A stretch of 64,000 nucleotides of DNA from Alphaproteobacteria bacterium (GTDB taxonomy: Bacteria > Pseudomonadota > Alphaproteobacteria > WRAU01 > Hepatincolaceae): NCBI GenBank assembly GCA_009780035.1, contig WRAU01000005.1:1-64000 (forward strand), written 5' to 3'. How positions within the stretch are numbered: the first letter of the stretch is position 1; every line of letters starts with the position of its first letter. The position numbers and the translations under genes are program-made. This document shows, one piece after another, positions 425-20,296 of this stretch. The notes beneath the pieces were generated by a model that ran no database searches, was not told where the DNA came from, and saw only the letters and a list, made by a program, of their open reading frames with translations.

Positions 425-901
425 ATGAGGTATCTAATTATTATTATAGTCTGCTTTTGTGCGTTTGAGCTTAAGGCAGAGGTTCTTACTTTTCATTGCA
501 AAACAGACGATTCGTTAGGAAATTCAGGTGGCTTTGCTGGATACAATAAGTTAGATAATATTAGTTTGGATTATTATTTTCAAACTGGAAAAGAAAGAGG
601 TTTTATTTTAACAAAGCTCAATAATTTATCTGTAAACGGGGTTAGCTTAATAAGCAACCTAAAAGCTAAATACAAAATAGGCATAGTTCCACCAGAAAAC
701 CCAAAAGATATAGAAAAAGCTATGCTTTTAAATGCTTTTGCTGGGGACTATAATAAAATGGAAATATTTAATATTTTTTTTAATTTTGAAAACAATAAAG
801 TTGTAGCTGTTTACTCTTTACAATCAATAGAAGAAGACGGAGCTATATCAATAAATACAATCTCTTCATGTATGAAAGTTGAAGATTATTTAATAAATTA
901 A
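425..901 (+). CDS. Secreted protein of the immunity cassette, gene 1
   Basis: 158 residues. A hydrophobic stretch (about residues 3-15) ending in ELKAE forms a classic signal peptide, so the product should be periplasmic. The mature part starts with a cysteine about eight residues in and has a second cysteine near the C-terminus, which could form a disulfide. The stop codon overlaps the next start by one base (translational coupling). No family is recognised. By position inside a prophage immunity region it is a candidate lysogenic-conversion or superinfection-exclusion gene; the function is inferred from location only. Confidence 0.75.
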   Translation: MRYLIIIIVCFCAFELKAEVLTFHCKTDDSLGNSGGFAGYNKLDNISLDYYFQTGKERGFILTKLNNLSVNGVSLISNLKAKYKIGIVPPENPKDIEKAMLLNAFAGDYNKMEIFNIFFNFENNKVVAVYSLQSIEEDGAISINTISSCMKVEDYLIN

Positions 902-1317
902 TGAAATCAATATTTATAGCTACATTCTTTTTGTTTTTTGTTGCTAATCTAGTTGCAGAAAGCCTTATTTGCGAACCTACAGACAATTGGCAATACACGG
1001 AGTATGAAGAGGGAGCCGCTTATTTTAGCAAGTTTGATACATCAAAAAAATACAGAAAAAAAATAAAATTGCAGTTAGAAAAAGATAAAATAATATTATC
1101 TGATCTTGATGGCGTTATTGCGGAGGCAAAAATACTAATCAATACTCCAGAGATAAGAGGTAGCGGCATGTTAGTAATGGCTTATACTTATACAAGGAAT
1201 CCTAACACAATGTATAACTATACTATAACTAGATATAATGCAGGTAGTTATTACTTAACGGTAAATTATAACATTGAGACATCGCAAGCGGGGATTATGC
1301 AATATGTTTGTAGATAA
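901..1317 (+). CDS. Secreted protein of the immunity cassette, gene 2
   Basis: 138 residues with an N-terminal signal peptide (hydrophobic residues 3-17, cleavage likely after NLVA). Like its upstream neighbour, the mature protein has one cysteine just after the signal (LIC) and one at the very C-terminus (YVCR), the same size and cysteine arrangement, suggesting a diverged pair or a shared small beta-rich fold. The start overlaps the previous stop and the end overlaps the next gene, so the three genes form one operon. The function is unknown. Confidence 0.75.
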   Translation: MKSIFIATFFLFFVANLVAESLICEPTDNWQYTEYEEGAAYFSKFDTSKKYRKKIKLQLEKDKIILSDLDGVIAEAKILINTPEIRGSGMLVMAYTYTRNPNTMYNYTITRYNAGSYYLTVNYNIETSQAGIMQYVCR

Positions 1318-1879
1318 AAAAATATTTATTATAGCTATTTTTTTTATTTTTCCAAGTTTTGTATGGGCGTATGGGGAATATACGAGCGAAGATATTCATT
1401 CATACGGAATAGATTATGATATGACTTTGTTGAAGAAAATCCTTAATAATGATTTAGAAATCGCAAAAGAGATACGGAAACAAGGAATAGAGCAAGGACG
1501 AGATATTCATGTTAGAAAAAATAAATTAGGAGAGTTGTATCTTGAGGAAAACGGTGAATTATTAGGAAAGTATCAAGTCTTTAATAAACAAGGGCTTTCT
1601 CAATTTGATATGGCACATTATTACTGGCTGACATGGATAATAATTATTTCTACTTCTTTTGCTTATTATCGTATAGTTTTTGAAAACAAAAAGACAAAAA
1701 AAGGCACTAAAGTTTTATTATCTTTGCTTGTTTTTTCTATCGTTCCACCTTTAATTGTTTCGCCATTTTATGAGAATACAGGGGAAATATTCGGTTGGAT
1801 ATTTGGTATATTTTTCTTTGGTATTTTTATATTATTTTTCGCTAAAATGCTATTATTTATTTTTAATAAGATGTTTTAA
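1304..1879 (+). CDS. Membrane protein carrying a virion-protein domain; candidate superinfection-exclusion protein
   Basis: 191 residues from the ATG at 1304, preferred over the upstream TTG at 1274 because a purine-rich GCGGGG lies upstream and a signal sequence begins there directly. Layout: signal peptide (residues 1-22, ending FVWA), periplasmic domain (about 27-102), then three hydrophobic segments at about 106-126, 136-160 and 166-190. The periplasmic domain matches residues 8-85 of the internal virion protein at 13239: both contain EIR, then G, then QGRDI, then RKN, then GE, then K..N..GLS in the same order and spacing. This suggests interference with ejection of an incoming related phage; the role is inferred, the similarity is seen. 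It converges on the repressor gene with a 4-base overlap. Confidence 0.8.
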   Translation: MFVDKKIFIIAIFFIFPSFVWAYGEYTSEDIHSYGIDYDMTLLKKILNNDLEIAKEIRKQGIEQGRDIHVRKNKLGELYLEENGELLGKYQVFNKQGLSQFDMAHYYWLTWIIIISTSFAYYRIVFENKKTKKGTKVLLSLLVFSIVPPLIVSPFYENTGEIFGWIFGIFFFGIFILFFAKMLLFIFNKMF

Positions 1880-2505
1880 TGCAATTTTTTAAAAAATGTT
1901 CCTAAAACTTCGCCGATAACTTGAAACTCATATTTAGGAGGTATAGGAATTTCTATTGTTTGATAGGTTTTATTATTAGATATTAATAAAATTTTATCTG
2001 GTGTTCTTTGGACTCTTTTAAAATAAAATTCCTTATTGTAAATAAAAGCATATAATCCATCGTTATTAAAAAAATTTATAGAACTATCAATGATTACTGT
2101 TTCTCCGCTTTCAACATCAGGCGACATAGAATCGCCCTGAATTGTAAACATAATTAAATTATTTACATTTCTTTTTGTAATTAGCTCTAAAAAATCTTTA
2201 TCAATTTCCATAATGCTATACTCTTTATTAAGTGAATAAATAGGTTCAACCCCTTGCCCTGCCGATAGTTTGTGAGTAAATAACTTTAGAGAAATTTTGC
2301 TTGAAACTACAGCTTCGTTTGTATTTTTTATAAGTTCGTCAGGCGACACGCCTAGGGCTTGTGATAGTTTTTCAATTGTATTTTTTGTCAATCTTGTTGC
2401 TCCTCTCTCTATATCTCCAATATGACCAGAAGACAACCCACTTAATTTTGATAATTCTTTTTGAGATATATTTTTCTCTTCTCTAATTTTTTTTAAGTTT
2501 TGCAT
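1876..2505 (-). CDS. CI-type prophage repressor (XRE HTH plus LexA/S24 peptidase domain)
   Basis: 209 residues. Residues 3-60 form an XRE helix-turn-helix. Residues 75-209 form an S24 autopeptidase: cleavage dipeptide Ala82-Gly83, catalytic Ser126 in GDSMS and Lys163 in FYFKRV. Such repressors hold lysogeny and self-cleave when RecA is activated by DNA damage. It is read leftward, divergently from PR, and is flanked by two identical operator blocks, which it most likely binds. Its own promoter lacks a good -35, as in positively autoregulated PRM promoters. All expected catalytic residues are present. Confidence 0.93.
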   Translation of the reverse strand: MQNLKKIREEKNISQKELSKLSGLSSGHIGDIERGATRLTKNTIEKLSQALGVSPDELIKNTNEAVVSSKISLKLFTHKLSAGQGVEPIYSLNKEYSIMEIDKDFLELITKRNVNNLIMFTIQGDSMSPDVESGETVIIDSSINFFNNDGLYAFIYNKEFYFKRVQRTPDKILLISNNKTYQTIEIPIPPKYEFQVIGEVLGTFFKKLH

Positions 2506-2708: not shown

Positions 2709-2783
2709 GCCGGCAGTAGCTTAAGTAGGAGAGCATAGCCTTTGGGGGCTAAAGATGTAGGTGCAAGTCCTACCGCCAGCACA
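2709..2783 (+). tRNA. Degenerate tRNA-Pro(UGG)-like element in the PR leader
   Basis: The stretch folds as a cloverleaf: D-arm with a canonical-looking sequence (GTAGCTTAAGTAGGAGAGCA), anticodon stem TAGCC/GGCTA (2736-2740 and 2747-2751), T-arm GTAGG/CCTAC (2757-2761 and 2769-2773) and a seven-base acceptor with two C/A mismatches. The anticodon loop is TTTGGG, six bases; one more G in the five-G run would give a normal loop with anticodon UGG. The T-loop is TGCAAGT and the 3' end is ACA, not CCA. It is likely a decayed tRNA or a tRNA-like RNA element, not a working tRNA. Confidence 0.5.
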
Positions 2784-8734: not shown

Positions 8735-10108
8735 ATGAGTGTAGAACAAATAGCTAGGGTATCGGTAGCATATTTTATAGAAAAAGTAAGTAGAAGCAGT
8801 ATTTCTAATTATCCAATTTTAAACGAGCTTTATGAGGCAGGTTGCATTAAAGGTATCCCCTTTGGTGCAGATATTCGGCAGCCTACCATATTAGCAAGCA
8901 ATATTCCCGACCCAACCGATTTAGATGGTAATAGCATGACAAGCCAAAATACTAATGCTACAACATCGGCAATATATAACTATAAAGTTATACCAAAAAA
9001 AATCCCGCTTTCTATGGAGCAAATTATGCAAAAGGCTTCTAAAGATACCGCAAGGGTTGATTGGATAAATGGCGAAATGACCTCAGGTGCGGATTCAATC
9101 TTGCTTGCAACCGAATTACAACTTCAAAGTGATGGCACTTATGCAAGCGGATTGTCTTTTGATGGCGTTCGTGGAGCGGTATCTACAACTCCAACCATAG
9201 GTTCGTTCGGGCAAATTGACCGTTCAGTTGAGCCAAGATGGAGGAATAAAGCCTATAATGGATTAGATAGCACTTCAAGCGTTCCTGATGCTGGAAATAC
9301 TGCAGATTTAAGCAATATCCTAGGCAGACTAAAATATATTATTAATGGTTTACAAGTAGGTAAAAGTGGATGCACACACGCATTTTGCTCGCCTGATATG
9401 TATGAGCTGTTTGAGACTGCTGCAGAAGACAAACAACGGGTAATTACAAATAGTGATACAACCCCAATCGGATACCAACGCATGACTTACAAAGGTGTCA
9501 AGATAGTTAATACTGGCGGCTTACAAAGAGTGGATGGCAATCAGCTTTTAGGCTTCCCGGAAAAAACTGTAGTTTTCATGACTTTAAAAAGAGAAAAATT
9601 TTCTTTTAACTTCTTTGACCAGACTAAATTTAACGACGAATTCCGTAAAATGATTGCTTACACAAAAGACCCTGAAAGTATGCCGTTTAATCTAGCTGCC
9701 ATGATTACGCCTAATGCTGAAAATGGTATTTTAATGCACAAATCGGCTACTAACTCAACATACTATATTGAGCCAAGAATTACCGGCAATGCAACTTACG
9801 GCGATTTGCAAGCTACTGCAATTTACTTTGAAGCTCCAGCAACAACCCCGCCAGCTAAAGGGTTTACTTTAAGTTCAAACACTTCAACGGTTGCGGCAGG
9901 CTCTACATCAACTGTAGATATTGCTTATACTAATGGTGCTACGGCTGCCGATATTACGATATCAAGCTCTGATACAGGTATTGCAACCGTTGCAGTTAGC
10001 GGAACGACTATAACAATAACAGGAGTTGCCGCGGGCAATGCTAATATAAATGTTTCTATAACTGGGGATTCAAGTTCGCAGCAGACAATTGCCGCAACCG
10101 TAAACTAG
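8735..10108 (+). CDS. Major capsid protein with C-terminal Ig-like (BIG2) domain
   Basis: 457 residues with a good Shine-Dalgarno (AAAGGACAAA). Residues 1-370 have the look of an HK97-fold coat protein lacking a long delta domain. Residues 375-457 are a bacterial Ig-like group 2 domain (LSSNTSTVAAGST, then SSDTGIATV, then ITGVAAGNANINVS), appended after a PATTPPAKG linker. Such domains are displayed on the capsid surface and in other phages bind glycans or mucin; here the binding role is inference. It lies at the centre of the head module. Confidence 0.85.
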   Translation: MSVEQIARVSVAYFIEKVSRSSISNYPILNELYEAGCIKGIPFGADIRQPTILASNIPDPTDLDGNSMTSQNTNATTSAIYNYKVIPKKIPLSMEQIMQKASKDTARVDWINGEMTSGADSILLATELQLQSDGTYASGLSFDGVRGAVSTTPTIGSFGQIDRSVEPRWRNKAYNGLDSTSSVPDAGNTADLSNILGRLKYIINGLQVGKSGCTHAFCSPDMYELFETAAEDKQRVITNSDTTPIGYQRMTYKGVKIVNTGGLQRVDGNQLLGFPEKTVVFMTLKREKFSFNFFDQTKFNDEFRKMIAYTKDPESMPFNLAAMITPNAENGILMHKSATNSTYYIEPRITGNATYGDLQATAIYFEAPATTPPAKGFTLSSNTSTVAAGSTSTVDIAYTNGATAADITISSSDTGIATVAVSGTTITITGVAAGNANINVSITGDSSSQQTIAATVN

Positions 10109-10579: not shown

Positions 10580-11203
10580 ATGGCATATGATTTAAAAGAT
10601 GTATCTTCTTGGAAAAAAAGCGAAGACACAACAGAAAGCAAAAAATATTCAGCAACATTTTTTGTAAAAGATATTTTTAACCCTACGGATGGGACAACGA
10701 GAAAAGAAGTGCCGTTAATTGAATTTAAAAGCTCTTACAATAAGCACGCTTCACAAATATTTGAGGTTGATTTTGTTAGATTTACTAATTTTAAAGAATT
10801 GCAGCCGGACATTGCAAGATTCTATGCAAAAAAATACGATGGCAGCCTAGAGGATGCTAGTAAAGATGTTCGTGATGTGCTTATTTACCATGGTTTTTAT
10901 AGGTTAGATATTTGTAAAAATTATTCTCGTGAGTTTTTCTCTTCAATTTTGGCAGAAATTAAAAACGAGTTGATTATTGAAATTATGGATTACCTAAAAA
11001 GCAAAGGCTGCTTTAGCGATAAAGCTAAAAAAGTTAAGGCTGAGCCTGTTGATGTCCCAATTAAAAATAATATAAATCCTGATATTGAAGAAAAATTTAG
11101 CAAAATGCAGGAAGCAATTGATAAAAAAGATGCACAAATTGATAGATTGCTAAATATGATAGAAGCTAAAAAAGCTAAAGAACTAGAAAAAGAGGTGGAA
11201 TAA
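10580..11203 (+). CDS. Head-module protein of unknown function
   Basis: 207 residues with Shine-Dalgarno AGGAGT. N-terminal ~140 residues are a mixed alpha/beta domain; the C-terminal ~45 residues are a charged coiled coil (KMQEAIDKKDAQIDRLL). No family is recognised. The position between the cement protein and the ejection proteins, and the 1-base overlap with the next gene, suggest a virion or head-completion role. Confidence 0.6.
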   Translation: MAYDLKDVSSWKKSEDTTESKKYSATFFVKDIFNPTDGTTRKEVPLIEFKSSYNKHASQIFEVDFVRFTNFKELQPDIARFYAKKYDGSLEDASKDVRDVLIYHGFYRLDICKNYSREFFSSILAEIKNELIIEIMDYLKSKGCFSDKAKKVKAEPVDVPIKNNINPDIEEKFSKMQEAIDKKDAQIDRLLNMIEAKKAKELEKEVE

Positions 11204-11823
11204 TGGGTTTATTTGGTGGTATTGAAAAGCTATTTGGTAGCAATGGGGCGAAAAAGCCCTTTTATGATAACCAGCAGCTAGCTAAAGGGCAAGCCGATTG
11301 GCTTAAACAACAAGGCGATGCTAACAATAATTGGAATCAAGAGCTAGCTAATCAAATTATGGGTGGCTATAAAGATTTTAAGTTAAATACTGACAATACC
11401 GTAAATCAGGCTCTGCAAGGCATAGATAGGCAGCAAATGAATGACGAGGCTAAGCTGGCTAATATGGGCATGACTGGGCGTAGCAATAATGCTTTTAGTA
11501 ATCTGTATAGTGATTACGCCAGCAAAAAAGCCACCACTGAAGAGGAAATCCGCAATAATGCCAATCAAGCAATGTTTCAAAATCAAATGAACGCACTTGG
11601 GCAGGCAGGTAATGCGTATAATCAGGGTTATAACAACCAAATGAACGCTTATAATGATGCTTATGGCGGACAAATGAACGCTAATAATGCTTTAGGAGCA
11701 TATTTGGCAGGGCAAGGGCAAAATAGGTTGAGTAGTATTGGTAGTATCTTGGGTGGTGCTGCCAGTTTTGGCACAGGGATGTATCAAGCTAATATTATGA
11801 ATAAATACCTTAACGGACAATAG
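11203..11823 (+). CDS. Small internal virion/ejection protein candidate
   Basis: 206 residues, Asn/Gln/Gly-rich. It has a long helical body with repeated NQMNA/GQMNA units (about residues 125-160) and a Gly/Ala-rich hydrophobic C-terminus (SSIGSILGGAASFGTGMYQ). This composition resembles ejection proteins of short-tailed phages, which leave the capsid and form a trans-envelope channel. It heads a run of three such genes. Confidence 0.55.
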   Translation: MGLFGGIEKLFGSNGAKKPFYDNQQLAKGQADWLKQQGDANNNWNQELANQIMGGYKDFKLNTDNTVNQALQGIDRQQMNDEAKLANMGMTGRSNNAFSNLYSDYASKKATTEEEIRNNANQAMFQNQMNALGQAGNAYNQGYNNQMNAYNDAYGGQMNANNALGAYLAGQGQNRLSSIGSILGGAASFGTGMYQANIMNKYLNGQ

Positions 11824-11826
11824 ATT

Positions 11827-13236
11827 ATGGCAATAACACAAGCAGAGCTAGACGCAACTAAAAAAAGGTTGGGAATTGTAGACGAATTCGGTAATACAAC
11901 ACAAGAATCACCAAGCGTGCGTCCTGTTGGTTTAACGCAGCGAGCTAACAATGGGATTGTTGATCCAGTTTTACAAGATACTACCTCGCCGCAAGGTGAG
12001 GCTGTAGGCACTGCGGGTGCGGTGAGCAGCTCCTCTGCCGCACCTGTAGAGGCTAAATCCTCAGAGACTGCATTTGATAGACTAAACAGATATTATTTAG
12101 CAAAAATTAAAGCGGATGACGAAGTAAATAATTCTTGGCTAGGTAAAGGCTTGTCTGGGTTGCGGTTTATTGGTGAGTCTATGCAAGCTGGAGCAAATGG
12201 TGGAAAAGGGCAAATGGTGGGCGGACATTATGTGCCTAACGCTGGCGGCAATAGTTTTGATTTAGCCACTGGAGCTGCTAATAAAGAGGTTAGAGATAGA
12301 GCTGAATGGGAAGAAAAAAATTTAGAAAAAATGCAGGAAGCCCAATTTGATAATCAAAAAAATAGGCAAGATTTTGCTGAAAATATGCAGAATAAACAAT
12401 TTGATTCTGCGGAAAATCAGCGTGGTATTAATAACGATATTAGAGAGCGTCAATTTACAGAGCAGAAAGATCAAAGAGGTATTGATAATAATTTTAGAGA
12501 AAGTGAAGCAGGCAGAAATCAAGGCAATATTGAAAATCAGCAGATGGAGCAAAAATTAACTCGTGCTAGTAATGAAAACTTTAAAAATCAACAATTAGAT
12601 TTAGAAAAGCAGAAGCTAGCAGCACAGCAAGCGGCTTTAAATACTCCAGAAGCTAAAGCTAAAGCTCAAGCTGAAATGATAAAAAATAATGAAGTAATTA
12701 GAAAAGAAGAGCAGCGGCAACAAGGTAGCAAGCAAGTTGCAAATGCTTACAAAGACATTCTTAAAGAATATGAAGGCATGCAAAATTTAATTGGTAGTGA
12801 TACTATGACAAGACTGAGCCGCTCCCTAACTAACGCTGAGGGAGTAATTGCAGTTCCGGCAGAAATTGCAAGAAGTGTTTTAGCTGGCATAGGAGTAAGA
12901 GGCAAAGAAGCGGACCAGCATTACCACAATGCAAAAGCTCAAATTGAAAATATAATCTTGCCGCATTTAAAAGAGGTAGGCGGCACTAATCCAGCCGCTA
13001 AAGAAATGGAAAAGTTGCTTGAAACTGCCTTTAATCCTAATACTGACTACGGCACATCTATTGCTCTTTTGACGAATGCTTTAAGTAAATATACTGACGA
13101 AGATTTACCGCAGTTATTTAGCGAGACTGTTGGCGAGGATTTCTTAGATAGGCATAAAGTTCCTGAAAAATACAGGAAGCATATTGACGATAAAGGTAAT
13201 GTTTTAGAAAACACACCTGACATTACAGGAGAGTAA
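11827..13236 (+). CDS. Internal virion/ejection protein candidate with Asn/Gln-rich repeats
   Basis: 469 residues. Residues 170-260 are imperfect ~12-14-residue repeats (NRQDFAENMQNKQFDSAENQ and variants) predicted as coiled coil, followed by a helical C-terminal domain. Size, helical content and position between the small ejection protein and the 799-residue protein match the middle member of a podovirus ejectosome set. It has no enzymatic motif. Confidence 0.6.
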   Translation: MAITQAELDATKKRLGIVDEFGNTTQESPSVRPVGLTQRANNGIVDPVLQDTTSPQGEAVGTAGAVSSSSAAPVEAKSSETAFDRLNRYYLAKIKADDEVNNSWLGKGLSGLRFIGESMQAGANGGKGQMVGGHYVPNAGGNSFDLATGAANKEVRDRAEWEEKNLEKMQEAQFDNQKNRQDFAENMQNKQFDSAENQRGINNDIRERQFTEQKDQRGIDNNFRESEAGRNQGNIENQQMEQKLTRASNENFKNQQLDLEKQKLAAQQAALNTPEAKAKAQAEMIKNNEVIRKEEQRQQGSKQVANAYKDILKEYEGMQNLIGSDTMTRLSRSLTNAEGVIAVPAEIARSVLAGIGVRGKEADQHYHNAKAQIENIILPHLKEVGGTNPAAKEMEKLLETAFNPNTDYGTSIALLTNALSKYTDEDLPQLFSETVGEDFLDRHKVPEKYRKHIDDKGNVLENTPDITGE

Positions 13237-13238
13237 AT

Positions 13239-15638
13239 TTGTCAGATAGTGAAGAAATCCAAGATAAAGACTTATTAGATGCGGGCATTGATAGGAATTT
13301 CCTAAAAGGTGATATTGCTAGATTAAGTGGGGACGATTTTAAAAAAGCTCAAGAAATAAGGGAGCTTGGTAAAAAACAAGGTCGCGATATTAGAATCCGT
13401 AAAAATCAAGATGGCGAAATATTTCTCAGTGAGGGTGGCAAAGCCCTAATGGGTGGTAAAGTGATCAACGCTAAAGGTTTATCGTGGGAAGATGGTAAAG
13501 ACCTACTCTACGACCCTACTAATTTACTAATGGCGGTTCCTGGTTTAGGCTGGGCTGGCAAGGGTGCATCTCTATTTAAAAAAATGATGGGGTTAGGCAA
13601 GCTAGGTGCGGCAGCTGGTGTGACAGATTTAGCCACAACCACAGCCACAGATATTGCTAATAATCAAGGGACTAAATATGCTGGTGATAATATATGGCGG
13701 GCAGCGACTGCAGGGGCATTAACGCCAGCGGTGGCATTAGGTGGTGAAAAATTAGCTCGTGGAGCTGGAAAAGTTTTCGGTAAAAAAAATCCTATTAAAG
13801 ATGGCGATGTGCCTTTAACACGAGGTCAAGCCACCAATAATGCCAAAGATTTAGCCTTTGAGGGTGGTGTTTTAAAAGGTGAACACGGGCAGCCCGCACA
13901 AAAAATAATGCAGGAGCATGTAAATAAACAAGCAGAAGCAGTTCAGCTAGGGCTCTCAAAAGACTTAGGTGCAACCTTTGATAGCCCTAGCAGGAATAAT
14001 ATGTTAGGCGAGGAAATACAAGAGAATTTACGGAATTCTAAGTCTAATGACCTTGACGCTTCCAATAATTTGTATAAAGAGGCAAATTTAGATAATGCCG
14101 CTTTGAGCCGTGCTAACATACAAGAATTATTAAATAATTTAGAAAAAACTATTGGCGAGCAAGGCAGGGATTCCATTGAAAAATTTGGTAAATATGCCCA
14201 GGAATATGAAGCCTCGCAAGCAGTAGATGCCTTAAAGAAAGGGCTTGGTGTAGAAAAAAATACAACTAATGCCAATCCTAACAACATGAGCGATGTATTT
14301 AAAAATCAAGCTGGTGATGTAAATATTCGCTTTAATGATGGCAGTTTGAATAATTTTAGATATGGTGAGTTTGGCAAGAATCCAGCCACTGGAAAAGAAT
14401 ACGGTTTTGCTGGCAAAAAAATAGAAGTGAAGCACCCAAATACTGCTACTGCTGATTTTAAACAACAATTAAAAAATGCTAGATTAATAGGGTATAAGCC
14501 AAACGGGAGAAGAGTATACGAAACTCCAGATGGAACTATTGTAGCAGTTAGTAAAGATAACCAAATACTTACTGCTTATAAACCTGATGGAGTTCGTAGC
14601 CCCGCCGAGGGAACGACTCTCACTTCAAAAGAAGTGCCTACAACTCACGCCCCATCTTTACATCAAGGGACTCCATCAGTTAGTAATAATATACCAAACA
14701 ACCCTCGTAGTGTCAACAACTTAGATAACCGCATGTATCCAACGGTAAGTCTTGCCAAGTTAGAAATGGGGCGAAAAATGCTGAATGAGGCGATTGCTAA
14801 AGCTACCGCTAACCAAGATAAAACCACGCTTGCAAAATTAATGCAGGTAAAAAGTTCTTACGACAAAACTATTAGCGATATGGCAAAAGCTGGAAAATTT
14901 GAGGGCGACGCAACTCAGGTGGATAAATTATTAAAGGCACGAGCAAATAAGGCAGATTACCATTCAAAATATACAAACTCTAAGGAAGAGAATTTAAGGT
15001 CAGCTGGTGCTAGTGAAGTTTTAGATATTATTAATAATCCTAATAAAACTGGGGCAGATATTAATAAATTGCTTGACCCCTCTAAAACTACCACTACAAA
15101 GCAGCTGCAGGCTTTAAATAAGCTGGAGCAAATTTCAACTCCTGAAGACTTCAATAAAATAAAAGAAATTTATTTGAATAATCTGTTAAGCGATATTAGT
15201 GAAAAAGGTGGCGTTGGTAAATTAAGAGGACAGTCTGCAACGGATAATTTAGGAAGATACAAAAAATTACTAAATCACCTGAATGACAATTTTGTTAAAA
15301 ATCCAGTGGTTGCTAATAAATTATTGTCTAAGGAAGAGAAAAACGCACTTAAGAAACATATAAATACTATAGAAAAACTAGCAAGGACCGAAAAAGCCAA
15401 GCCGCACAGAAGTATAACTGCCGCTCTTGCAGGAGCAACCAAAGGCACTATAGGCAGAGTTCCCCTTGTAGGAGGCATATCGGTAAGTGCTTATGAAAAT
15501 ATGATAAAGCCAGTTATTGTAAGGAATTATTTAAACAAAATGATTAAAGAAAATAGAATTTCACTGGAACAGGCACAAAAGATAAGTAGAGATGTAGGAA
15601 TTATATTAGGCAATGAAAAGAAAAATACAAAAAATTAA
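13239..15638 (+). CDS. Large internal virion/ejection protein; N-terminal domain shared with the immunity-cassette membrane protein
   Basis: 799 residues from TTG at 13239, set by AGGAGAG eight bases upstream; no ATG fits. Residues 8-85 form a small domain (EIRELGKKQGRDI, RKN, GEIFL, NAKGLS) matching residues 27-102 of the protein at 1304-1879. Next comes a Gly/Ala-rich hydrophobic stretch (95-170), a helical region, an unusual beta-rich insert at about 350-450 (RFNDGSLNNFRYGEFG, then YETPDGTIVAVSKDN), a low-complexity linker and a long helical C-terminus. The ejection role comes from position and build; the insert is unassigned. Confidence 0.7.
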   Translation: MSDSEEIQDKDLLDAGIDRNFLKGDIARLSGDDFKKAQEIRELGKKQGRDIRIRKNQDGEIFLSEGGKALMGGKVINAKGLSWEDGKDLLYDPTNLLMAVPGLGWAGKGASLFKKMMGLGKLGAAAGVTDLATTTATDIANNQGTKYAGDNIWRAATAGALTPAVALGGEKLARGAGKVFGKKNPIKDGDVPLTRGQATNNAKDLAFEGGVLKGEHGQPAQKIMQEHVNKQAEAVQLGLSKDLGATFDSPSRNNMLGEEIQENLRNSKSNDLDASNNLYKEANLDNAALSRANIQELLNNLEKTIGEQGRDSIEKFGKYAQEYEASQAVDALKKGLGVEKNTTNANPNNMSDVFKNQAGDVNIRFNDGSLNNFRYGEFGKNPATGKEYGFAGKKIEVKHPNTATADFKQQLKNARLIGYKPNGRRVYETPDGTIVAVSKDNQILTAYKPDGVRSPAEGTTLTSKEVPTTHAPSLHQGTPSVSNNIPNNPRSVNNLDNRMYPTVSLAKLEMGRKMLNEAIAKATANQDKTTLAKLMQVKSSYDKTISDMAKAGKFEGDATQVDKLLKARANKADYHSKYTNSKEENLRSAGASEVLDIINNPNKTGADINKLLDPSKTTTTKQLQALNKLEQISTPEDFNKIKEIYLNNLLSDISEKGGVGKLRGQSATDNLGRYKKLLNHLNDNFVKNPVVANKLLSKEEKNALKKHINTIEKLARTEKAKPHRSITAALAGATKGTIGRVPLVGGISVSAYENMIKPVIVRNYLNKMIKENRISLEQAQKISRDVGIILGNEKKNTKN

Positions 15639-18199: not shown

Positions 18200-18833
18200 A
18201 GAAATAGTATCGCAAGCCTCTAATATGTTGGGTGTTGGCGTTATTGAAGATAATGATAGTTTATTCAATAATGTTGACGAAGGTAGTATAAATTGGCTTG
18301 CTTTTTGTAATATGTGTTTTGACGAAATATTTAAGGATATTTTTAATAAAAATGTTTTACTTGATGTGAGCATTTCTTTATTAACTCCAGCAAAGGCGGT
18401 AAAAAATAGCGCAGGTTATTATAGCTATGAAATAGGTAATTTGCCAATTGTTAAAATTCTGTCTGTTAGAGACGGCAATAATAAATTAAATAGGGTGGTT
18501 AGTTATGAAGAACTTAACCGATTTAGAAATAAACGCTATTCTTACATACAAAAACATTCTAGTATTGCTACTGCAGAATTATTTAAGAATTTAACTATAG
18601 AATACCTAGATAGCAGAATATTTTTAAATGCAGCAGGTGAGCTTGTAGAATCACTGATTGCCGATACTGACATTATAATTGTAGATAATAGCTTGGTTAT
18701 TTATAAATTATGTGCTTTAGTAGCAGATTCAAAAGCTATGCCGCAAGCTGCTAGTTTTAAGCAGCAATATGCGGAAAGATTAGCTTATATTATACAAGAC
18801 AATTTAATTAATAGAAAACCCTTATATTTATAA
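18180..18833 (+). CDS. Head-tail adaptor / tail tubular protein A-like
   Basis: 217 residues, mostly helical with a central beta region. Segments such as IGNLPIVKILSVRDGNNKL and LTIEYLDSRIFLNAAGELV recall T7 gp11/P22 gp4-type adaptors: 'Y.LP.....V..V' and a C-terminal helix pair ending in a YAERLAYIIQDN motif. It sits directly before the nozzle gene with a one-base overlap, as in T7 (11-12). Similarity is by pattern only. Confidence 0.55.
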   Translation: MKNLTIKEIVSQASNMLGVGVIEDNDSLFNNVDEGSINWLAFCNMCFDEIFKDIFNKNVLLDVSISLLTPAKAVKNSAGYYSYEIGNLPIVKILSVRDGNNKLNRVVSYEELNRFRNKRYSYIQKHSSIATAELFKNLTIEYLDSRIFLNAAGELVESLIADTDIIIVDNSLVIYKLCALVADSKAMPQAASFKQQYAERLAYIIQDNLINRKPLYL

Positions 18834-20296
18834 TGCCGCAGTTTCAAATTCAAATTCCGCTTAGCTTATATATTTCCAAATCAACAAACACCTCACCTAA
18901 CGGCGAGGCAATCGTTATGAAAAATTTTATTCCTACCCTAAGCGGTGGTGTGCAGTTGCGGCGGGGTCATAAACATTTAGGTTTCAGCGATATTGATTAT
19001 ATAGCTACCTTCAAATCCACCAATACACTAGTATTATTTTCTAGGACTTCCGGATTAAAAATACTTAATCAAATATATATGGTAGTTTATGAAGACGCGG
19101 ATTTTAAAAGTGTGCCAGTAAATTATATTGAAACTGCCGAAAGATTGCTACTATTTTTTAATAATGAAACCGTTAAAGAATTAAATTTTAATGGTATTTA
19201 CAATATTGAAGAAGTAAAATTTAACGACGACATTGCTAGAGTATTTTACAATGCAACAAGATATAGGAATAGACTATTTTTCATTGAGAAAGATAGTAAT
19301 ATTTTATGGTATGCAGCAATACTTGCCTATAAGGGCGACTTAGAAAGTTTTGACGCAACAGGCGTGTATAATTCTAAGGGAAAAATAGTAAATATTGATA
19401 CATTCGGTTATACTGGCGGTTTAGGTGAATTAACTTACTTAGTAGTTGCTTTTAATAGTGGCGATATTCTACTATTTGATGGTATTAATCCTAGTGATTT
19501 AACTGGTGAAAACTGGCAAGCAAAAAGAATTATAAGTTCACATCTGGATACATATAACCAAATTATTAATACTGGGTCTAATTTGTTTTTATTAACGGCA
19601 AACGGGTTGCTTGATTTGCAGTCAGCCATTCAATCTAACAATATAGCGATGGCGACTACTTTACTGATTCCTATTCAGGATACTATAAAATTTAGCCGGG
19701 CTAGAATTTTTACGCACAAAGAATATATTATAATCACGCAGTCCTCTTCTACAGAGGTATATTTTTTTGATACGCGATTAAAGGTTTTTTTTAGTATCAC
19801 AGGCTTCAGCTTTAACCATGTAGAAACTTTTCATGATAAGCTGATATTTTTAGATACTAACGGCAATTTATTTGAGGCTTTTACGGCTAAAAACGACAAT
19901 GGAAACGCAATAATCGGGGAACTAGCGACAGGCTGGCAAGATTTAGGAACACCTAATAATAAACGGATTACATTTATAAATTGCGGTATGTTTTATACTA
20001 ACGGCGATTATAAAATTCAAACAGGTATCTATAAAAATAACGATATAACCAAAGGCACAATGAAGCAATTGCCGCTTATTGCTCCAAATTCGCCACGATG
20101 GAGCAATATAACGCCCACATGGACGGAGGCAGCTAGATTGTGGTTTGGATCAAGTATGGGAGCTTATAAGTCAATTAAATTCCCCAAAATGGCACTTGGC
20201 AGAAATATTTCATTTTATTTTGTAATTCAAAGCGATAATGTTGACAGTTTTGAGTTTCAAGACATGAGTATAGATTATGATTTAATGGCTTTTTAA
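18833..20296 (+). CDS. Tail nozzle protein (T7 gp12 / P22 gp10-like)
   Basis: 487 residues, beta-rich throughout, with repeated short motifs around FGYTGGLGELTYLVVAFN and ILLFDGINPSDL, typical of the propeller-like nozzle of short-tailed phages. The N-terminus (MKNFIPTLSGGVQLRRGH) matches the 'N..P...G....R.G' start common to this class. The length is close to P22 gp10 (472). It caps the portal-adaptor channel and closes it around packaged DNA. Confidence 0.65.
   Translation: MPQFQIQIPLSLYISKSTNTSPNGEAIVMKNFIPTLSGGVQLRRGHKHLGFSDIDYIATFKSTNTLVLFSRTSGLKILNQIYMVVYEDADFKSVPVNYIETAERLLLFFNNETVKELNFNGIYNIEEVKFNDDIARVFYNATRYRNRLFFIEKDSNILWYAAILAYKGDLESFDATGVYNSKGKIVNIDTFGYTGGLGELTYLVVAFNSGDILLFDGINPSDLTGENWQAKRIISSHLDTYNQIINTGSNLFLLTANGLLDLQSAIQSNNIAMATTLLIPIQDTIKFSRARIFTHKEYIIITQSSSTEVYFFDTRLKVFFSITGFSFNHVETFHDKLIFLDTNGNLFEAFTAKNDNGNAIIGELATGWQDLGTPNNKRITFINCGMFYTNGDYKIQTGIYKNNDITKGTMKQLPLIAPNSPRWSNITPTWTEAARLWFGSSMGAYKSIKFPKMALGRNISFYFVIQSDNVDSFEFQDMSIDYDLMAF

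Follow-up and report, generated by a model that had tools for sequence, protein, structure and literature searches.

An exported membrane protein in a prophage immunity region shares a gp16-N-like domain with the ejection protein of the same phage

SieA of phage P22 is a prophage-encoded inner-membrane protein of 164 amino acids (aa) whose escape mutations fall in gp16 and gp20, and its authors proposed that it disturbs the conduit built by these two proteins (PMC10883804). They also found it difficult to understand how such an interaction could be kept across very divergent gp16 and gp20 proteins (PMC10883804). Ltp of phage TP-J34 is an exported, membrane-anchored exclusion protein with a soluble repeat domain that targets the tape measure protein of an incoming phage (PMC3952083), while HK97 gp15, as cited in PMC10883804, is a small, predicted inner-membrane moron exclusion protein that blocks DNA entry. 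SNIPE is a membrane defence acting at genome injection, and the N-terminal regions of some of its homologues are homologous to the P22 tail needle (PMC13190303); it is the nearest precedent for a defence protein that borrows a piece of the injection machinery.

Here we analysed a 64,000-nt stretch of DNA (the window), the start of a contig (C5) of a 1.42-Mb alphaproteobacterial genome, in which the immunity region of a prophage encodes a membrane protein that shares a domain with the ejection protein of the same phage. Like SieA, this protein is prophage-encoded and of similar size (191 aa); it is predicted to sit in the inner membrane, and the step and targets suggested for it below, ejection and the gp16/gp20 conduit, are those of SieA (PMC10883804). 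Unlike it, SieA carries no domain copied from gp16, and sieA, which has a promoter of its own, is a late-region neighbour of gene 16, whereas the present gene lies between OL and cI. Membership of the SieA family, or kinship with proteins at the sieA position of related phages, was rejected, with no detectable similarity found (best E against P22 SieA, 3.7 over 9 residues), and the PADLOC defence models gave no match for the membrane protein.

The other systems differ in further ways. Ltp is a lipoprotein of a Gram-positive host with a siphophage target, and it is described as binding its target and not as a copy of a target domain (PMC3952083). HK97 gp15 belongs to a siphophage and is not described in PMC10883804 as a virion-domain copy. 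SNIPE is a nuclease whose borrowed part is thought to localise it (PMC13190303), and it is not encoded in a prophage immunity region as the partner of an ejection protein from the same phage. By analogy, the candidate described here would resemble SieA, Ltp and HK97 gp15 in stage and location. A search of the open-access literature turned up no account of an exclusion factor that copies a domain of an ejection protein.

The immunity region and its exported genes

A tailed-phage genome segment runs from the left edge of the window to about 22,300, with host genes beyond. It encodes a repressor, small and large terminases, a candidate portal and scaffold, a major capsid protein, three candidate internal proteins, an amidase and tail proteins. 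The segment lacks its left part. It shares its first 123 bp exactly with the opening of another contig of the genome (C1), where a second prophage (prophage B, C1:1 to about 28,000; L023, L024) begins with these 123 bp. Neither an integrase nor an att site was seen for the window prophage, and we infer its prophage state from the repressor, from the host genes that follow on its right side and from the left end that it shares with C1. The major capsid protein (8735-10108) has a C-terminal Ig-like domain, and prophage B encodes a 223-aa protein with a related one. The features of the immunity region are as follows:

118-239 (no strand): left operator/promoter repeat (OL/PL-like), with a palindrome at 166-193 and an outward promoter, TTGACT-17-TATATT, on the minus strand at 205-177
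425-901 (plus strand): exported protein, 158 aa, with a predicted signal peptide and a cysteine near each end
901-1317 (plus strand): exported protein, 138 aa, with a predicted signal peptide and a cysteine near each end
1304-1879 (plus strand): exported membrane protein, 191 aa, with a predicted signal peptide (residues 1-22), a domain (25-102) and two to three predicted transmembrane (TM) helices (105-190)
1376-1609 (plus strand): gp16-N-like domain within the membrane protein (residues 25-102), from BLASTP and profiles
1876-2505 (minus strand): CI-type repressor (HTH_3 plus Peptidase_S24), convergent with the run of exported genes
2577-2698 (no strand): right operator/promoter repeat (OR/PR-like), with a palindrome at 2623-2650 and an outward promoter, TTGACT-17-TATATT, on the plus strand at 2611-2639

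The cassette and the repressor are enclosed by the two inverted repeats (122 nt, 89% identity), within which the 90 nt at 150-239 recur exactly, in inverted orientation, at 2577-2666. Each repeat carries the palindrome TACACTTWATATWAAGTGTA overlapping an outward TTGACT-17-TATATT promoter. The 20-nt palindromes are absent elsewhere in the window (expected 0.03), and the promoter scan was by itself not above chance, so that the weight rests on the pairing of promoters with palindromes. The layout is that of lambda, with candidate operators on both sides, outward early promoters and the repressor inside, and the 1304-1879 gene lies within this operator-flanked region, which a sequence-only reading of the window had correctly called an immunity region. 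In lambda, the exclusion genes rexAB are placed with cI between OL and OR, and RexA and RexB form an abortive system transcribed in the direction of cI. The likeness would lie in having exclusion genes beside cI within the immunity region; the abortive system is unrelated, and the run described here is convergent with cI.

Two side observations concern the repeats and their surroundings. The 90-nt inverted copies are exactly identical in a phage that has otherwise diverged far from known ones, an indication of gene conversion or possibly of an invertible immunity segment. Just 3' of the outward right promoter lies a tRNA-like RNA (2712-2778, plus strand) that scored 32.3 bits with the Rfam tRNA model (cut-off 29), has a short acceptor stem and was not called by ARAGORN; a sequence with 84% identity over about 115 bp occupies the same position in prophage B (L023:2206-2320). 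The presence of such an element in both leaders suggests either a function in the early expression of the phage or a tRNA that has decayed.

The three exported genes (425-901, 901-1317 and 1304-1879) overlap at their ends, the start of the second overlapping the stop of the first and the third overlapping the second, and each product has a predicted signal peptide. No known family was found for the 158-aa and 138-aa proteins. As possible virion copies, the former scored best against the C-terminal part of the ejection protein (17 of 3,000 shuffles as good) and the latter showed weak similarity to a 487-aa tail protein (18833-20296; 3 of 3,000 shuffles), but each score was the best of 24 comparisons and neither was convincing.

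Prophage B has the same layout without the cassette. Its structural genes differ from those of the window prophage, being of a long-tailed, probably myovirus type, while relatives of window prophage proteins include its cI (43%), endolysin (60%) and a nuclease-like protein (53%). An inverted repeat of 52 nt (96%) surrounds its own cI, with sequences unlike the window repeats, and no cassette separates this repeat from the repressor gene. This makes it probable that the exported genes are an accessory (moron-like) insertion at a place where lysogenic genes sit.

The third gene of the run begins at ATG 1304, where the sequence-only reading had put it, and encodes a protein whose signal peptide is predicted to end VWA-Y. 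Two predicted TM helices are clear (about 136-154 and 163-187) and one is weaker (about 105-127), in agreement with the exported, three-helix topology proposed earlier, and the loop between the first two is lysine-rich (net +5). On this topology, which comes from hydropathy and weak models, the domain would lie on the periplasmic side of the inner membrane.

A domain shared with the ejection protein

The second copy of the domain is encoded in the third of three consecutive virion genes:

11203-11823 (plus strand): putative ejection protein at the gp7 position, 206 aa, assigned on gene order only
11827-13236 (plus strand): putative ejection/conduit protein at the gp20 position, 469 aa, coiled-coil-like, assigned on gene order only
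13239-15638 (plus strand): gp16-type ejection protein, 799 aa, by BLAST to the prophage protein P0003
13254-13493 (plus strand): gp16-N-like domain of the ejection protein (residues 6-85), from BLASTP and profiles

Residues 25-102 of the membrane protein aligned with residues 6-85 of the virion protein at 39% identity and 61% positives (BLASTP, E 4e-14), with a single gap two residues long. The virion protein was the only non-self match below E = 1 for the membrane protein among 493 stop-to-stop frames of the window (E 2e-12), and the Smith-Waterman score of 132 stood 24 SD above shuffled sequences (32 ± 4, maximum 54, n = 2,000). Within the core, EIRxxGxxQGRDIxxRKNxxGExxLxE, 16 of 27 residues are identical. 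By sequence comparison, homology between the two copies is certain, as the sequence-only reading had claimed, and they are the only two copies in the whole genome. The aligned codons share just 46% DNA identity, with the same codon at 10 of 31 identical residues; the domain copy is therefore not recent, again as first supposed, and the copies diverged either long ago or fast.

The full virion protein, which starts at TTG 13239 as originally read, has a single distant relative in the class, P0003 of genome G239, to which its residues 55-309 aligned with an E value of 4e-8 over 255 residues (BLAST). This alignment takes in the second half of the gp16-N domain, in register (INAKGLSWED with LNKPGLDLQD). 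The N-terminal region of P0003 leads in turn to proteins at the gp16 position in Lederbergvirus N7 and in Vibrio phages, and P0003 matched a phage-only gp16-N profile with an i-E of 3e-9. The domain-bearing proteins of N7, Vibrio and Proteus phages are grouped with P22 gp16 in phrog_770 ('DNA transfer protein') and are encoded 3' of annotated gp7 and gp20 homologues. Although the virion protein had no direct match to PHROGs phrog_770 or to a full-length gp16 profile, this transitive link through P0003 identifies it, at the level of sequence, as a gp16-type ejection protein. The order and sizes of the three genes (206, 469 and 799 aa) fit gp7/gp20/gp16, but gp7 and gp20 profiles matched neither upstream gene. 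Residues of about 365-450 (IRFNDGSLNNFRYGEFGKNPATGKEYG...) of the ejection protein resemble an inserted globular domain, unlike the remainder.

Viral gp16-N domains follow a pattern of a helix, a GN turn and LPSGxYxLNKPGLSxxD, directly ahead of a hydrophobic stretch. When gp16-N profiles from which P0003 and all window sequences had been left out, to avoid circularity, were run against 201 fragments of the window, the two window domains ranked first and second, with the longest aligned stretches and in the same register, at single p-values that were modest (5e-4 to 2e-3). The hhalign probability for the window domain against gp16-N was 15-31%, weak in any single comparison, and AlphaFold models of low confidence, made independently for the membrane protein and for a viral gp16-N domain, each gave a helix, three strands and a helix in that order. 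Taken as a transitive chain, these comparisons make it likely that the domain common to the two window proteins is a divergent form of the gp16 N-terminal domain. The earlier description of a 'leading domain' of the ejection protein stands in the sense of an N-terminal position and no further. In phage PfAn1, the domain comes after a transglycosylase SLT domain (SLT 20-112); this order, and its place on the N-terminal side of the hydrophobic region, make a periplasmic site of action probable. In T7, the gp16 segment that follows the transglycosylase domain cements the gp15 tunnel (PMC8954989), a segment that may be equated with the window domain on position only.

A widespread generic domain with no tie to ejection was also considered and rejected: Pfam, PHROGs, NCBIfam and PADLOC hold no model for the shared domain, it has no host-domain character, and its relatives are tied to gp16-type ejection proteins, in keeping with the link to phage ejection that the sequence-only reading had drawn. 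The window domain sequence had no match in 50,697 phage records and, in a whole-domain search of 385 genomes of the class, none beyond the window genome. An NCBIfam IglJ match (E 0.0067, 15.9 bits versus a cut-off of 100) was judged to be chance.

Copies elsewhere sit in large proteins. In each of ten complete phage genomes that encode the domain, the single copy is part of a large protein (P22 has none), and at 79 of 80 viral-contig loci the domain is again in a large protein, the remaining locus having it in a 329-residue frame close to a contig end. Within up to 10 kb on each side of the 80 loci there was no small protein with the domain, searches of 385 and 398 genomes gave convincing matches in large proteins only, and weak gp16-N matches in other genomes of the class (L100-L104) were set aside as partial or low-scoring. 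Short conserved DNA patterns searched against viral and genome contigs returned chance matches only. With no small membrane protein among about 90 other copies, the membrane-tethered copy is unique so far. The recurrence across phages that was expected to support an exclusion role did not appear: no second phage pairing the domain with a membrane protein was found, and co-occurrence therefore cannot support that reading.

Possible functions of the tethered copy

The best explanation, to which we give somewhat less than even credence, is that 1304-1879 encodes a superinfection-exclusion factor. The three overlapping genes (425-1879) would form a lysogenic, moron-like cassette between the left operator and the repressor, whose expression in the lysogen is suggested by its position between mirror operators together with cI. 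The third product would go to the inner membrane and hold its gp16-N-like domain in the periplasm, this domain being a copy of the one that precedes the membrane-active region in the gp16-type ejection protein of the phage. During infection by a related phage, whose gp7-, gp20- and gp16-like proteins are ejected into the envelope, the tethered copy would compete with the incoming gp16-type protein for a docking partner, most likely the gp20-like conduit protein and otherwise a host envelope factor. Without a working conduit the DNA would stay out, giving superinfection exclusion at the ejection step. Counting against this reading, the SieA escape mutations in gp16 fall in its C-terminal part and not at its N-terminus, and the gp16 proteins of P22, Sf6 and CUS-3 are without the domain; the case is also a single example.

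An unlikely alternative, which would also amount to superinfection exclusion but with a host factor as its direct target, is that the prophage copy occupies or shields a host envelope component, an inner-membrane protein or peptidoglycan, needed by gp16-type proteins. The probable periplasmic placement of the domain fits such receptor occupancy, as do the examples of HK97 gp15 and SNIPE, which involve host inner-membrane proteins (PMC13190303). However, no host partner is known, the copy is enzyme-free and without obvious catalytic residues, and nothing about the domain sets this alternative apart from competition for the conduit.

Somewhat less likely still is lysogenic conversion without exclusion, with an envelope-binding domain of the ejection protein re-used to anchor a complex of the two small exported proteins that alters the host envelope to some other end. 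Three exported proteins in one overlapping run, the first two without a family, would suit this account, but it leaves unexplained why the domain should derive from the ejection protein of the same phage and why it has an inner-membrane anchor. We give little weight to a role in the phage's own cycle, either aiding its own ejection proteins after re-infection or limiting ejection onto sister cells and debris during lysis: one phage does hold both domain-bearing genes, but the cassette gene has a position next to cI, within the operators, that lambda-like phages use for lysogenic genes, and the exported run is missing from prophage B. Neutral domain shuffling, in which the domain was captured by recombination and has no present function, is the least probable reading, for although only a single example is known, the core is still 16/27 identical in protein despite the low DNA identity and the frame is intact with its signal peptide and TM helices.

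If competition for the conduit is the correct reading, a factor made of a piece of gp16 would solve, for one phage, the problem of how a SieA-type protein recognises the conduit. The shared residues would then name the interface, and such a factor would demonstrate that domains of ejection proteins can become defence modules. The locus also offers a search rule, a virion domain with a signal peptide and TM helices inside an immunity region, that may reveal more exclusion genes. With greater doubt than for the single protein, it may represent a class of exclusion proteins in which a domain of the phage's own ejection protein is copied, exported and tethered to the inner membrane as a dominant-negative decoy; if so, the specificity of exclusion would come directly from the ejection machinery.
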